Below are positions 18,175-39,628 of a stretch of DNA of 64,000 bases, one piece after another; position 1 is the stretch's first letter, and every line of letters begins with the position of its first letter. A program made the translations under genes and the position numbers. The notes under the pieces were generated by a model. The model worked only from the letters and a program-made list of their open reading frames with translations, ran no database searches and had not been told where the DNA came from. Where the stretch lies: the NCBI GenBank assembly GCA_018302985.1, contig JAGVZA010000004.1, positions 1-64,000 of the forward strand, written 5' to 3'. The stretch is from Candidatus Woesearchaeota archaeon. GTDB lineage: Archaea; Nanobdellota; Nanobdellia; SCGC-AAA011-G17; UBA489.

Positions 18175-18280
18175 TGGGCCCGAGCAGATTTGAACTGCCG
18201 ACCACCAGCTGTCTTAGGATATGTTTTAGCTGATATCGTCTTATAAGACTGGTACTCTAACCAGGCTGAGCTACGGGCCC
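18175..18280 (-). tRNA. tRNA-Ile, anticodon reads UAU, 31-nt intron at canonical 37/38 position
   Basis: GGGCCCG/CGGGCCC acceptor; CCAGT/GCTGG anticodon stem; spliced loop CTTATAA; BHB: CTTA pairs with intron TAAG, 3-nt bulges TAA and ACA. Intron about 18211..18241. Confidence 0.85.
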
Positions 18281-33343: not shown

Positions 33344-34333
33344 ATGTTAGTCTTAGGCATTGAATCTACTGCGCATACTTTTGGAGCAGCTGTTCTTAAT
33401 CTGAAGGGGGAAATTTTAAGCGATGTACGAGATGTTTTTACTACAGTAGAAGGCGGCATGATCCCGAAACTAGTTGCCAGACATCATGAACAAATTGCTG
33501 ATACAGTTATCAAAAAAGCACTAGCAGATGCGAAAGCAAATCATATTGATCTAGTTGTTTATTCACGCGGACCCGGCATGAGTCCTTGTTTACGAATTGG
33601 ATTAGCAAAAGCAAAAGAGTATGCTCAAGCATTCAAGTGCGATATTATTGGAGCTCATCATCCTATGGCACATCTAACTTCTGGCTTATTATTTACTGCA
33701 GCACAAGATCCTGTTATGCTTTATTTGAGCGGAGCTAATACCCAAATTATTGCTCTAGAAGCTGGCAAGTATAGAGTGTTTGGAGAAACTGAAGATGTTG
33801 GCTTGGGAAATGCCTTAGATAAATTTGCACGAGCACTAGGTTTAGGTTTTCCAGGTGGTCCAAAGATTGAACAACTAGCACTTCAAGGGAAATGGACTGA
33901 ATTACCTTACACTGTGAAAGGCATGGATGTTGCTTTTTCTGGAATCATTACCAGAGTAACTCAATTAGCAAACAAAGGTGTTTCTAAAGAAGATCTTTGT
34001 TATTCTTTGCAAGAAGTTTTCTTTAGCATGATCACAGAAGTGACTGAAAGGGCTATGGCACATTTACGCAAGAAAGAAGTGTTGCTTATAGGCGGAGTAG
34101 CTGCGAATAAACGTCTTTGTGCTATGCTGGAAATTATGTGTAAAGCTCGAGGAGCGAAGTTTTTTGCAGTACCTATGCAATATGCTGGAGATAATGCTGC
34201 CATGATTGCTTGGCAAGGGTTGTTAGAATATCATGCTGGTAGACGAGAAACAACATTAGATATTTATCCTTTTGAACGCTGTGATGATATTGATGTGATT
34301 TGGGAAACTGCTAAAGCACCTTTGTCAAAGTGA
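33344..34333 (+). CDS. kae1: Kae1/TsaD/Qri7 tRNA N6-threonylcarbamoyladenosine synthesis protein
   Basis: LGIESTAHTFGAAV; MIPKLVARHHEQ; IIGAHHPMAHLTSGLL; LIGGVAANKRL. Confidence 0.97.
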   Translation: MLVLGIESTAHTFGAAVLNLKGEILSDVRDVFTTVEGGMIPKLVARHHEQIADTVIKKALADAKANHIDLVVYSRGPGMSPCLRIGLAKAKEYAQAFKCDIIGAHHPMAHLTSGLLFTAAQDPVMLYLSGANTQIIALEAGKYRVFGETEDVGLGNALDKFARALGLGFPGGPKIEQLALQGKWTELPYTVKGMDVAFSGIITRVTQLANKGVSKEDLCYSLQEVFFSMITEVTERAMAHLRKKEVLLIGGVAANKRLCAMLEIMCKARGAKFFAVPMQYAGDNAAMIAWQGLLEYHAGRRETTLDIYPFERCDDIDVIWETAKAPLSK

Positions 34334-35444
34334 ATTTTGCTGGCGTTGTTGCTGTTTTTAATGATCCTTCTACACGATAGCCATTAGCAGTAAATTCTAC
34401 TACTGGTGTTTTTTCCGAGAGTTTTTTGTAAGCGCGCTCTGCAAATCTCATTAAAAATTTATTGATATGCTCAGCAGATGGATACATAATATTTGTTTTG
34501 TATGTTTTGTCTTTACGAACAATGGTGATTGGATTATTTTCTCCTTCGCAACTTATTTTGGTAATTGCACCATCATGGAATAAGGGTTCGATCCAACCAA
34601 ACTGCAATAGATGTTTAACCAAATAATATTTCATCTTGAGATATTCATTTTCATCATTTTTTTGCATGGGGAAATGGGATTTTTTAGCAGCCTTTTTTAT
34701 TTTTTTCATCAGTTTTTTCTTCTTAGCTAATTTTTTCTCTTTGCCTGCGAATTTTTTTCTTAACCAGGTAAGCATATTGATTTCTTCTGGTACTAAAAGC
34801 GGTTCAGTAACTGTGTAAATATCATTTTGCATGCTTACTGTGACAATGGGTCTTTTTGATTCAGCATCAACGATTAATGCAATCGGAGGTTCTATGCCCA
34901 CAGGAACTGTGACTGCAATAGGTGGAAGTGGAAGAGGTGTGGTAGGTTTTGGAGCTTCACCAAACTGGGGATTTGCTGCTGCTTTTTGTATCTCTGCTGA
35001 CAGAGCTGGCTTGAACTGTGAAAATGATTCTGGAGTACCTGTTAGTGTTTCATCTGTTGGTAAACGTAGCATAGGTTGTGCTTCTGGAGGTTTAGTAGGA
35101 AGACCAGAGGGGAGAAAAGTATCTTTAGCAACTTCTTTTTGCGGAGATTCTATAACTGGTGTATAATAAGTTGGACTAATAGGTGTTTCTCTCACTAGAG
35201 GACGGCGCTCTAAATTTTTGAGTTGCGCGAAGGTAGTATCTGTTTGTCTTTGCTGTTGTTGCTGTATTGGTTGTGGACGATACATGCGACGCGCGGTTGC
35301 CTGCACCAAGGCTCGGGTGAATTTATTGATAATAACTTTATCTTTTTTTTGTAAAGGCTTTTCTAAGTCTCTAAGAATATTTTGTACTTTAGTGTGCAAT
35401 TCACCTTCTAACTCATTCACCAGAAAATGAATCTCGTCTTCCAT
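34311..35444 (-). CDS. Protein with C-terminal secretion-ATPase (CpaF/GspE) N-domain-like region, no ATPase domain
   Basis: YYLVKHLLQFGWIEPLFHDGAITKISCEGENNPITIVRKDKTYKTN...; no Walker A. Confidence 0.6.
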   Translation of the reverse strand: MEDEIHFLVNELEGELHTKVQNILRDLEKPLQKKDKVIINKFTRALVQATARRMYRPQPIQQQQQRQTDTTFAQLKNLERRPLVRETPISPTYYTPVIESPQKEVAKDTFLPSGLPTKPPEAQPMLRLPTDETLTGTPESFSQFKPALSAEIQKAAANPQFGEAPKPTTPLPLPPIAVTVPVGIEPPIALIVDAESKRPIVTVSMQNDIYTVTEPLLVPEEINMLTWLRKKFAGKEKKLAKKKKLMKKIKKAAKKSHFPMQKNDENEYLKMKYYLVKHLLQFGWIEPLFHDGAITKISCEGENNPITIVRKDKTYKTNIMYPSAEHINKFLMRFAERAYKKLSEKTPVVEFTANGYRVEGSLKTATTPAKFTLTKVL

Positions 35445-35884: not shown

Positions 35885-36163
35885 ATGGATAGTTTTATCC
35901 ACTATAATGCACAGCATCCAACTGGTTTAACACGTGCAGATTTAGTTGCAAAAATTCAACCAAAGAAAGAGGATGATCTAACTAGACAACTTCTTTGTTT
36001 ACCTGATTCCGGGATACTGACAGATATTCTTCAGGAATTAAGCCCTTCTGTCAGCTGTCAAGACGGAGTTTACCAATTTCATCCTGACTCTGAACACTAT
36101 CATGCAGATAATGGACTATTTGATTCATCTATCAGACGTTTTTTACAAAAAAGATCATCTTAA
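35885..36163 (+). CDS. Hypothetical protein
   Basis: Intact ORF, convergent with GNAT gene. Confidence 0.5.
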   Translation: MDSFIHYNAQHPTGLTRADLVAKIQPKKEDDLTRQLLCLPDSGILTDILQELSPSVSCQDGVYQFHPDSEHYHADNGLFDSSIRRFLQKRSS

Positions 36164-36718
36164 TCGTAATTTCATTAATCTGTCAGTGGTTTCTGATTCT
36201 ATTTCTTGTAGCTGCTGCTCATCTTCTAACTTTTTTTTGAGATCTACTTGCTTGTCTTCTTTTTCTTTGAGCTTTTTACTCATGATTAACATATGTTCTC
36301 CTTCTTTGAAATGATCTTTCAAGAATCCTTCTAAAGTGAAACCAAATTTTTCATAGAAACTGCGAAGATTTGGAACTGTTACAATGCTTATCTTTCTTAT
36401 TTCATTTCTTTTGGCATGATCTATAATAAATTCTGTGAGTTTTCTTCCCCATCCTTTTCCTCTTGCTTCTTTTTTTACTATACAGTCTTTAATTTCTGCT
36501 ACATTTCCTTCATAAACCACTAGTGCAATCATCCCTACTATTTTGTCTTTCTCTTTTATAACAAAAGATTGGTCTTTGGTGATTTCTGTTTTATGACCAT
36601 TAGTTAGATAATTCAATGCAAAATCTTGAGCATAATTATCACCACGCTCTTTCCAATAAGAACGAAGCAAATTAGCAGTTGCCTGCAAATCTTCACTCTC
36701 TATTTTTTTTATTTCCAT
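36155..36718 (-). CDS. GNAT family N-acetyltransferase
   Basis: IKDCIVKKEARGKGWGRKLTEFIIDHAKRNEIRKISIVTVPNLRSFYEKFGF. Confidence 0.92.
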   Translation of the reverse strand: MEIKKIESEDLQATANLLRSYWKERGDNYAQDFALNYLTNGHKTEITKDQSFVIKEKDKIVGMIALVVYEGNVAEIKDCIVKKEARGKGWGRKLTEFIIDHAKRNEIRKISIVTVPNLRSFYEKFGFTLEGFLKDHFKEGEHMLIMSKKLKEKEDKQVDLKKKLEDEQQLQEIESETTDRLMKLRLR

Positions 36719-36741
36719 TGGTTTCCTCTTTTAGAATACTC

Positions 36742-37044
36742 TTAATAACAAACATCGCCAGGATATTGACAACGTGGTTCTGGATAATAGTTGTAACGAT
36801 AATATCTTGGTGGTGGATAGTGATAATATTGATTATATTGGCGGTAATGATCTCGATAAGCAATCACATGATATTGATGATGGGTATAATAGGATTGACC
36901 AGCGTAATATCTTCCAGAGTAATACTGAGGATCATCGTAAAATGTTCTGTGTTCATGATATGCTTCTGCTGTTTGCAGAGTTGCAAGGAAAGTTAGCGCT
37001 AACATAACATAGGCAAGTACTTTCATAGCTTTAGTAGAAGCCAT
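36742..37044 (-). CDS. Tyr/His-rich secreted protein
   Basis: Signal peptide VLAYVMLALTFLATLQTAEA; following 72 residues contain 22 Tyr. Confidence 0.75.
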   Translation of the reverse strand: MASTKAMKVLAYVMLALTFLATLQTAEAYHEHRTFYDDPQYYSGRYYAGQSYYTHHQYHVIAYRDHYRQYNQYYHYPPPRYYRYNYYPEPRCQYPGDVCY

Positions 37045-37345
37045 ATCGCTTACCTCCAGTGAAGGTGTTTAAGGTATAATATTTCCAATTAGGATCGTTG
37101 TAATAATTCGAGTAGTAATGTCCCATATAGGAATAAGTATAAGGGTTATAGTTGTATCCATAATAACTTGGGCCTTGATAATAATCCATCATATAATAAT
37201 TTCTTGTTGGGTAATAAGGTTGATTATAGGAATTACCATACATCATATAGGCATGAACTGCTTCAGCTCCCAGAAGCAACGCTAGAACAATGATACTCAT
37301 ACTTAACCATTTAAGCTGTTTCATATCTGTATCCCCCGCCTCCAC
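37031..37345 (-). CDS. Tyr-rich secreted protein
   Basis: Signal peptide WLSMSIIVLALLLGAEAVHA; last 71 residues contain 23 Tyr. Confidence 0.75.
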   Translation of the reverse strand: MEAGDTDMKQLKWLSMSIIVLALLLGAEAVHAYMMYGNSYNQPYYPTRNYYMMDYYQGPSYYGYNYNPYTYSYMGHYYSNYYNDPNWKYYTLNTFTGGKRYGFY

Positions 37346-37375
37346 CTATAGTCTGGAGTATATAAATTTTGCTTT

Positions 37376-38003
37376 TTAGACTGGTATTTGGACTGGGGCT
37401 TGTGCAGGAGTTCTTCTGTAAAATTGTTCTGAACAATATTCTACTTCATATCTTACTCTTGTTGGCAGTGCTGTAACAACCATAACTTTTCCATCCTCTA
37501 ATCTTTGTTTTAACTTGTCAAAAGAAATTGCCGTTGCTGGTTGATTTGTTGCTCTTAACATATAAGGAATATCCATAGTTTGCAGTGCTCGCTGTGTTTT
37601 TATTAAAATAGTTTCGATTCGACTATCTGCTGTAATAATTGCTACATACTTATCTTGTTTTACTGCCAAAGCCAATGCAGCAGCAACCATTTTTTCATCA
37701 TTTCTATTTTTTTGCATAATCTGCTGTTAATCTGACTTTTTCTTCTAATTCAGAAAGAACCTCTGCAGTAACTCCTATTTGCGTATAGCGTTGTAGAAAT
37801 TCTAAGCTTCTTCTGCTATAACTTACTGCCTCTCTTAACTTTTTTGTATTAACATTATTTTGTCTGGCATTGTCCCCACTCCAAGTAATCATTCTTTTTC
37901 CTACGTTCAAGAATTCTACTCCTAACTCACAATTATCTATAAGTCCAAGATCAGCAACGCCATCATCAAAAAGATCAGTAAGTGATTTTAAGTCAATTTC
38001 CAT
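37376..38003 (-). pseudogene. PIN-like domain protein split into two ORFs (37704..38003 and 37376..37717) at A7 homopolymer
   Basis: Removing one A from A7 at 37707-37713 fuses ..LTADYAK-NRNDEKMVAAALALAVKQDKYVAIITADSRIETIL.. Confidence 0.55.
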
Positions 38004-38011
38004 TTTCTTTC

Positions 38012-39628
38012 TTACATGTCTTGCATGCCGCCCATTCCTGGAGGCATAGATGACTGCTTGTTAGATCCTGAGCCTGCAATGACATCGTCAATTCTGAGAA
38101 TTAATTCAGCGACTTCTGATGCAGATTTGATTGCTTGTGTCTTGATTTTTAAAGGTTCAATAACGCCAGCTTTCCAAGCGTCTGTTACTTTTCCAGTAAA
38201 GACATCAACACTTGCCCATTTGTTGCCTTTATCATGCTGCGCTTTTAATTCTGTTAATAGATCAATAGGATCAAGACCTGCGTTTTCTGCTAGAGTTCTT
38301 GGGATAATCTCCAAAGCGTCCGCGAAAGCCAGGACTGCGAATTGCTCACGTCCTGCTAATTGAGTTGCATACTGTCTGATTTCTCTGGCAACGGCGATTT
38401 CAATAGCACCAGCACCACCCACTGCTTTTCCTACTTTTAAAGTTGCAATGATGTCGCCTAATGCATCTTTAACTGCACGTTCTACTTCATCTACAACGTG
38501 TTGTGTACCGCCACGCACTAAGAAAGTGACAGCTTTAGGATTTTTACATTCACGAACATAAGTCATTTGTTCATCGCCGACTTTGAGTTCTTCTACAAGT
38601 CCAGCATGACCTAAATCTTTTTCTGACAAGTCTTCGAGAGACATAATAATAGAAGCACCAGTTGCCTTTCCTAATTTTTCCATATCTGATTTTTTTACAC
38701 GGCGACAGGCATAGATGCCTGCTTTGGACAAATAATGTTGAGCTAAATCATCAATGCCTTTTTGACAGATAACGACAGTTGCTCCAGATTTAATGACTTT
38801 GTTGGTTTTGTCACGAATCATTTTTTCTTCCTGCATGAGGAATCCTTCCATTTGGTCTGGAGAAGAAATTTGAATTTTAGCATCAGTTTCGGTGTTTTTA
38901 ATTTCTAAAGCAACATCTAGTAAAGCAATTTTAGCATTTTTTACTTTTGTTGGCATACCAGGGTGGACACGTTCTTTGTCTAAGACAATACCTTCAATTA
39001 ATTCCGCGTTTTCAATACCGCCACCTACTTTCTTTTCGATTTTGATATTGTCCATTTCTATATTGTCGCCATCAGTGATTTGTTTAACTGCTCTTACTAA
39101 CAGATCTGCTAGGATTTCACGAGATGCTTCTGCACCTTTACCAGTCATAGCAGTCATAGCAATTTGCTTTAATATTTCTTCATCTTTTGCTGTCACTGGC
39201 ACTGCTAATCGATTGAGAATTTCCTGTGTTTTTTCTGCAGCCATATGATAGCCACGAGCGATAACTGTTGGATGAATTTCTTGATCGAGTAATGCTTCAG
39301 CTTTCTTTAAAAATTCACCCGCGAGGACTACTGCTGTAGTAGTACCATCACCAACTTCATTTTCTTGAGTTTTAGCAACTTCTACCAACATTTTAGCAGC
39401 TGGGTGCTCAATTTGCATTTCTTCTAGAATAGTAACTCCATCATTAGTAACAATAATATCACCTATAGAATCAACAATCATCTTGTCCATGCCTTTGGGA
39501 CCTAGAGTAGTTCTTACAGTTTCAGCCACTAGCTTAGCAGCCATAATATTATTTCTTTGCGCATCACGTCCTAATTGACGCGTATAGCCTTCTGGTAATA
39601 TATAGATTGGTTGTTGTTGATTTGCCAT
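38012..39628 (-). CDS. Thermosome / group II chaperonin subunit
   Basis: [43 protein letters not shown]. Confidence 0.98.

Follow-up and report, generated by a model that had tools for sequence, protein, structure and literature searches.

Genes A and B, which lie in tandem on the minus strand of the analysed window (the whole 64,000-nt stretch of archaeal DNA), encode two short proteins with predicted signal peptides and mature parts that are about one-third tyrosine. Judged by comparison with related genomes, both are real genes under selection, and their Tyr content is beyond chance. In our estimate, the chances are roughly even that the two products are exported, disordered, self-associating structural proteins that form a surface coat or an adhesive.

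Layout, conservation and composition of genes A and B

Gene A (37031..37324, minus) encodes a 97-aa protein and gene B (36742..37044, minus) a 100-aa protein, both taken from the open reading frames and their translations. The putative signal peptides, assessed by eye, carry a positive charge, a hydrophobic stretch, and an AxA-type end, with predicted cuts after VHA (residue 25) in A and after AEA (residue 28) in B. The first mature residue is Tyr in both cases. Mature A contains 24 Tyr in 72 residues (33%), lacks Cys, and ends with KRYGFY. Mature B contains 22 Tyr in 72 residues (31%), along with 7 His, 7 Arg, and a CX5C motif at the C-terminus. An earlier note on this DNA had counted 23 Tyr in the final 71 residues of A and 22 in the final 72 of B, and had remarked on the many His and Arg residues and the two Cys of B; all of this was reproduced.

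The stop of A and the start of B overlap by 14 nt (ATGGCTTCTACTAA, 37031..37044, minus), as had been described before, and the same 14 nt is found in G001, a genome of the same genus. This arrangement suggests that the translation of A and B may be coupled. An archaeal TATA-box-like element (AAATTTATATACT, 37357..37369, minus), recognized by eye, lies approximately 35 nt before the A start, and the same kind of inspection placed TTTATATA or TTTATAAA at the corresponding position in G001, G002, and G004. The earlier note had started A at GTG 37345. We dropped this position in favor of ATG 37324, which is probably the start, because a purine-rich RBS-like stretch and the TATA box lie upstream and the resulting signal peptide is clean. 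The sigma-70 and terminator scans yielded chance-level results and are uninformative for an archaeon.

The same-genus genomes examined alongside that of the window (G000) were G001 and G002, and both contain homologs of A and B. The two genes are adjacent in tandem with the identical overlap in G001, and they are located on two contig ends in G002. The comparison of G000 with G002 gave dN/dS values of 0.14 for A (49 codons) and 0.16 for B (83 codons), with substitutions commonest at third codon positions. The antisense and shifted frames of A and B show stops and mostly more amino-acid changes in the relatives. The third-position changes, the dN/dS values, and the stops in the other frames argue against a reading-frame artefact. 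The antisense hydrophobic ORF at 36679-36996 (+) was rejected as a true gene on the basis of the stops and the more frequent changes in the antisense frames of the relatives. The earlier note had taken unconserved frames as the outcome that would speak against A and B; the frames are kept in both G001 and G002, at a dN/dS of about 0.15.

Between G000 and G001, Tyr was retained at 22 of 24 positions in A, as compared with 27 of 47 for the other residues (p = 0.003), and at 19 of 21 aligned positions in B, as compared with 28 of 48 (p = 0.011); these figures are somewhat inflated, since the alignment itself favors Tyr matching. The CX5C motif and the His clusters are present in B of all three genus genomes, and the MM motifs of A (YMMYG and RNYYMMDYY) are invariant across the genus. 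A low-complexity by-product, with a relaxed, drifting composition and no specific role, would explain the variable length and sequence of these proteins, the lack of a similarity match in most of the family, and the empty locus in three genomes. We consider it highly improbable, because the selection test disfavors it: the low dN/dS, the Tyr retention, the conserved overlap and promoter, and an ortholog in another genus all stand against it.

The Tyr background in the window is 3.7%, and the binomial tail at this frequency is 6e-17 for A and 9e-15 for B. The next-highest Tyr fraction among the approximately 76 window genes is 9%. We also scanned about 1 Mb of sequence, most of it related, which contained over 5,000 open frames with 60 or more codons. 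Among the frames not belonging to the Tyr-rich exported group, the maximum was 12 Tyr per 60 residues, except that one antisense frame of a gene of this group had 13. The group itself reached 18–26 Tyr per 60 residues, and protein D of G000, described below, had 14. A and B are high in Tyr, Asn, Gly, Ser, Pro, Gln, and Arg, with His added in B, and Ile, Leu, Val, Lys, and Glu are nearly absent from both. The Arg:Lys count was 9:2 for A and B together (p = 0.004) and 29:11 across six Tyr-rich proteins (p = 1e-5), both relative to the window Arg share of 0.38; taken singly, A has 2:2 and B has 7:0. The Tyr spacing in A and B displayed no convincing period.

The locus across the family and further tyrosine-rich exported proteins

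Two genes on the minus strand served as syntenic anchors: a thermosome subunit gene (38012..39628) on the upstream side and a GNAT acetyltransferase gene (36155..36718; Pfam PF00583, E = 1.7e-17) on the downstream side. The gene order with GNAT is the same in G002 and in G004, which belongs to another genus of the same family. In G004, the thermosome gene is followed by that of a 105-aa putatively exported protein, the mature part of which is 25% Tyr. The similarity search alone found nothing in G004, and this ortholog of A came from synteny. Its local score against A of G001 was 115, as compared with a shuffled mean of 68.6 (sd 9.4), and none of the 5000 composition-matched shuffles reached it. 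The two proteins have a DPY(W/F)KY..LDSF.R motif at the C-terminus in common, and the MM motifs of A are absent from the G004 ortholog. Counting this syntenic ortholog, A occurs in two or more genera of the family; B was seen in the one genus only.

In three other members of the family, G003, G006, and G008, a GNAT-like gene comes directly after the thermosome gene, with no Tyr-rich gene at the locus. The search for a wider B family in the class, covering 378 genomes, gave nothing past the genus and G024. Weak matches of the A, B, and C queries elsewhere were discarded after a composition scan, which showed no Tyr-rich protein there except an aromatic-rich one in G019. In that genome (C10, L165 251-781), we noted an exported protein in which QYTHNECD motifs recur and a stretch rich in Tyr and Trp has 12 Tyr in 60 residues. 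A viral origin was also rejected, B being without relatives in IMG/VR contigs and A without relatives in phage records.

Where the window has two short ORFs, of 113 and 99 aa, at positions 37376-38003, G002 has a single ORF of 291 aa. Compared with this G002 ORF, the window misses about 245 nt at 37714/37715, which splits the frame. The intact 291-aa ORF of G002 had no Pfam match. At 34311-35444, the window encodes a 377-aa protein whose C-terminal part matches positions 107-217 only of the 527 in the FlaI archaellum ATPase model (E = 3e-12). Genes similar to this one adjoin the GNAT gene across the family.

An archaeal 16S fragment occupies positions 1-287 of the window, and the thermosome gene has matches of up to 73% among MAGs of Woesearchaeota and Nanoarchaeota; the two features identify the DNA as archaeal. 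A 106-nt tRNA at 18175-18280 was detected by Rfam and missed by ARAGORN; its length indicates that it perhaps contains an intron. The genome is small (1.04 Mb, 24 contigs), and the lineage is thought to be symbiotic. This small size would suit episymbiont adhesins that use Tyr-rich tails to stick to the surface of a host or partner cell, as would the fast divergence and patchy presence of the genes, which are usual for surface proteins. We regard such an attachment role as unlikely, given that an adhesin domain, an anchor, and a known partner are all absent. For charge transfer, which the earlier note had raised as speculation, the analysis turned up nothing in favor and nothing against.

We found three further Tyr-rich exported proteins, one in the genus (D) and two in another family. 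Protein D (G000 C18:80288-80746, L097 16288-16746) is encoded outside the window; it is membrane-anchored and has a tail rich in Tyr, and its clear matches are confined to the three genus members. A gene for a VIT-family metal transporter adjoins D in G000 and G001. It is not beside D in G002 and was therefore rejected as a constant neighbor. The proteins of the different family, from G024 and G039, are 163 and 153 aa long and contain 26 Tyr in their last 60 residues (L156 2745-3233 and L157 1036-1497, respectively). G024 has a second Tyr-rich exported protein of 81 aa, which matched B with a phmmer E-value of 0.0018, yet shuffling of the mature parts resulted in z values of 0.5, -0.9, and 1.2. 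In their mature parts, neither the 163-aa nor the 81-aa protein matches B better than composition-matched shuffles do. Compared with A, the 81-aa protein was borderline (z = 1.9 and 2.8). For the mature parts of A and B themselves, composition-matched shuffles gave z values of 3.0 (A0-B0), -1.2 (A1-B1), and -0.4 (A1-B0). As far as these alignments can tell, the further Tyr-rich exported proteins resemble A and B in composition, without demonstrable homology.

Fold, proposed assembly and candidate chemistry

AlphaFold yielded mean pLDDT values of 51.5 and 50.0 for the two proteins, with confidence for the signal peptides alone. The pLDDT was below 50 across nearly all of both mature parts; with input alignments of 3-4 sequences, this is weak evidence of disorder, and a fold may have been missed. 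Pfam and NCBIfam matches of A and B were all sub-threshold and mostly covered the signal peptide. A PDB sequence search at E-values up to 1 returned no match for either protein.

In the explanation that we favor, A and B would form a two-gene operon, and their products would be exported by the Sec route and then lose their signal peptides. Outside the cell, the mature chains would self-associate through Tyr–Tyr and Tyr–Arg contacts acting as stickers, and the Asn, Gly, Ser, Pro, and Gln residues would serve as spacers between them. The product may be a thin surface coat, an adhesive, or a pericellular gel. The CX5C pair of B would probably close a disulfide loop, or it may bind metal together with the His residues. 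Some covalent Tyr–Tyr cross-linking could take place afterwards, given an oxidant. Several points weigh against this coat. Homology between A and B could not be demonstrated, so the two might act differently, and A by itself has no more Arg than Lys (2 each). The sticker idea derives from cytoplasmic eukaryotic proteins and silks, and no secreted archaeal example was found. The structural or adhesive role suggested in the earlier note was supported insofar as the proteins are Tyr-rich, conserved, structural-looking, and, from their signal peptides, apparently secreted; for cross-linking, there is one candidate enzyme only.

A check for peroxidase or tyrosinase partners had also been suggested. 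The PF00141 heme peroxidase was not found in five genomes, with controls that gave a signal. The tyrosinase model had no match either; as it also missed its controls, this result is uninformative. The one candidate is a three-domain laccase/CueO-type multicopper oxidase (G000 C11:5220-6707), which is also present in G002 and has the motifs HWHG, HPH, HPIHLHG, and HCHIAEH and an N-terminal membrane anchor. Facing outward, it could couple Tyr to dityrosine (or turn it into DOPA) in the extracellular space, as in the oocyst walls of Eimeria. Its presence in G000 and G002 speaks for this chemistry. The multicopper oxidase domain is rare, occurring in 6 of the 103 genomes of the order, and 5 of these 6 belong to the family of the window. 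We still rate oxidative coupling as rather unlikely. The neighbors of the oxidase in G000 encode a P-type ATPase, an HMA-like chaperone, and ArsR-type regulators. These copper-resistance neighbors and a Met-rich segment in the oxidase make copper detoxification the simpler role. The same cluster (L127 1400-12100, G000:C11) also encodes Met-rich small exported proteins.

The distribution of the laccase-type oxidase overlaps that of A and B only partly. No multicopper oxidase was found in G001 (70% complete), G024, or G039. G007 has the laccase type, with A and B undetected, and the G004 counterpart (L132 1105-2283, C5) is a membrane-anchored two-domain multicopper protein that appears nitrite-reductase-like from its motifs.

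Extracellular copper or iron binding by the His, Tyr, Met, and Cys residues of A and B is a doubtful alternative. The His clusters and CX5C of B, found in three genomes, and the genus-wide MM motifs of A could provide ligands. The VIT-family gene beside D in G000 and G001, a weak VIT-like gene two genes from A in G004, and the Met-rich small proteins of the copper cluster point in the same direction. The G004 ortholog, however, lacks the MM motifs, and in G002 there is no VIT gene next to D. Moreover, A lacks Cys and contains 0-1 His, and dense Tyr alone is atypical as a copper or iron site. Oxidative cross-linking, metal binding, and partner attachment are not all mutually exclusive.

Known analogues and meaning

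By analogy of composition, the closest described counterparts of A and B are the Tyr-rich oocyst and sporocyst wall proteins of Eimeria. These are predicted to be disordered and thought to be cross-linked (PMC4776368). GAM56, GAM82, and EtSWP1 (PMC4776368) resemble A and B in having Tyr concentrated in one region and in their restriction to a lineage, and they are structural wall proteins; disorder, predicted for them, has weak evidence in A and B from the low AlphaFold confidence on shallow alignments. They differ in being eukaryotic and in having support for dityrosine cross-linking, and their likeness to A and B is in composition only. In their predicted secretion and tyrosine-dense region, A and B agree with the Eimeria type. 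The Eimeria wall proteins are longer than A and B.

Bacterial spore coats contain Tyr/Gly/His-rich proteins, e.g., YeeK, which are not known to be Sec-exported. Like A and B, they are short and aromatic-rich, with a coat-type composition, but they belong to sporulating bacteria, and nothing hints at sporulation in the present archaeon. The literature search found no paper on the spore-coat comparison. FUS-type prion-like low-complexity domains are sticker-and-spacer proteins, and they share with A and B the Tyr and Arg residues (putative stickers in A and B), the Gly/Ser/Asn/Gln residues that would be spacers, and the scarcity of aliphatic residues and Lys. They occur in cytoplasmic or nuclear eukaryotic RNA-binding proteins, whereas A and B are predicted to be exported, contain His and Pro, and have no RNA-binding domain. 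The sticker-and-spacer composition (Tyr and Arg up, Lys and aliphatics down) is clear for B, with few Arg in A. The literature search revealed no paper joining tyrosine-rich proteins and DPANN archaea, and no direct match to A or B.

A broader proposal, which we deem improbable at present, is that several unrelated, fast-evolving Tyr-rich exported proteins build a Tyr-based adhesive or cross-linked coat in some Woesearchaeota-type archaea, partly matured by an exported copper oxidase. If true, this would be the first archaeal counterpart of the hardened tyrosine-linked walls of eukaryotes; comparable material has so far been described mainly from parasite cyst walls. Very little is known about the surface of Woesearchaeota-type archaea. 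The recurrence across families of exported proteins with one-third Tyr, without detectable homology, and the selection that acts on A and B point to surface material that ordinary homology searches miss. A and B offer a concrete, cheap test for dityrosine-type or condensate-type coats in archaea.
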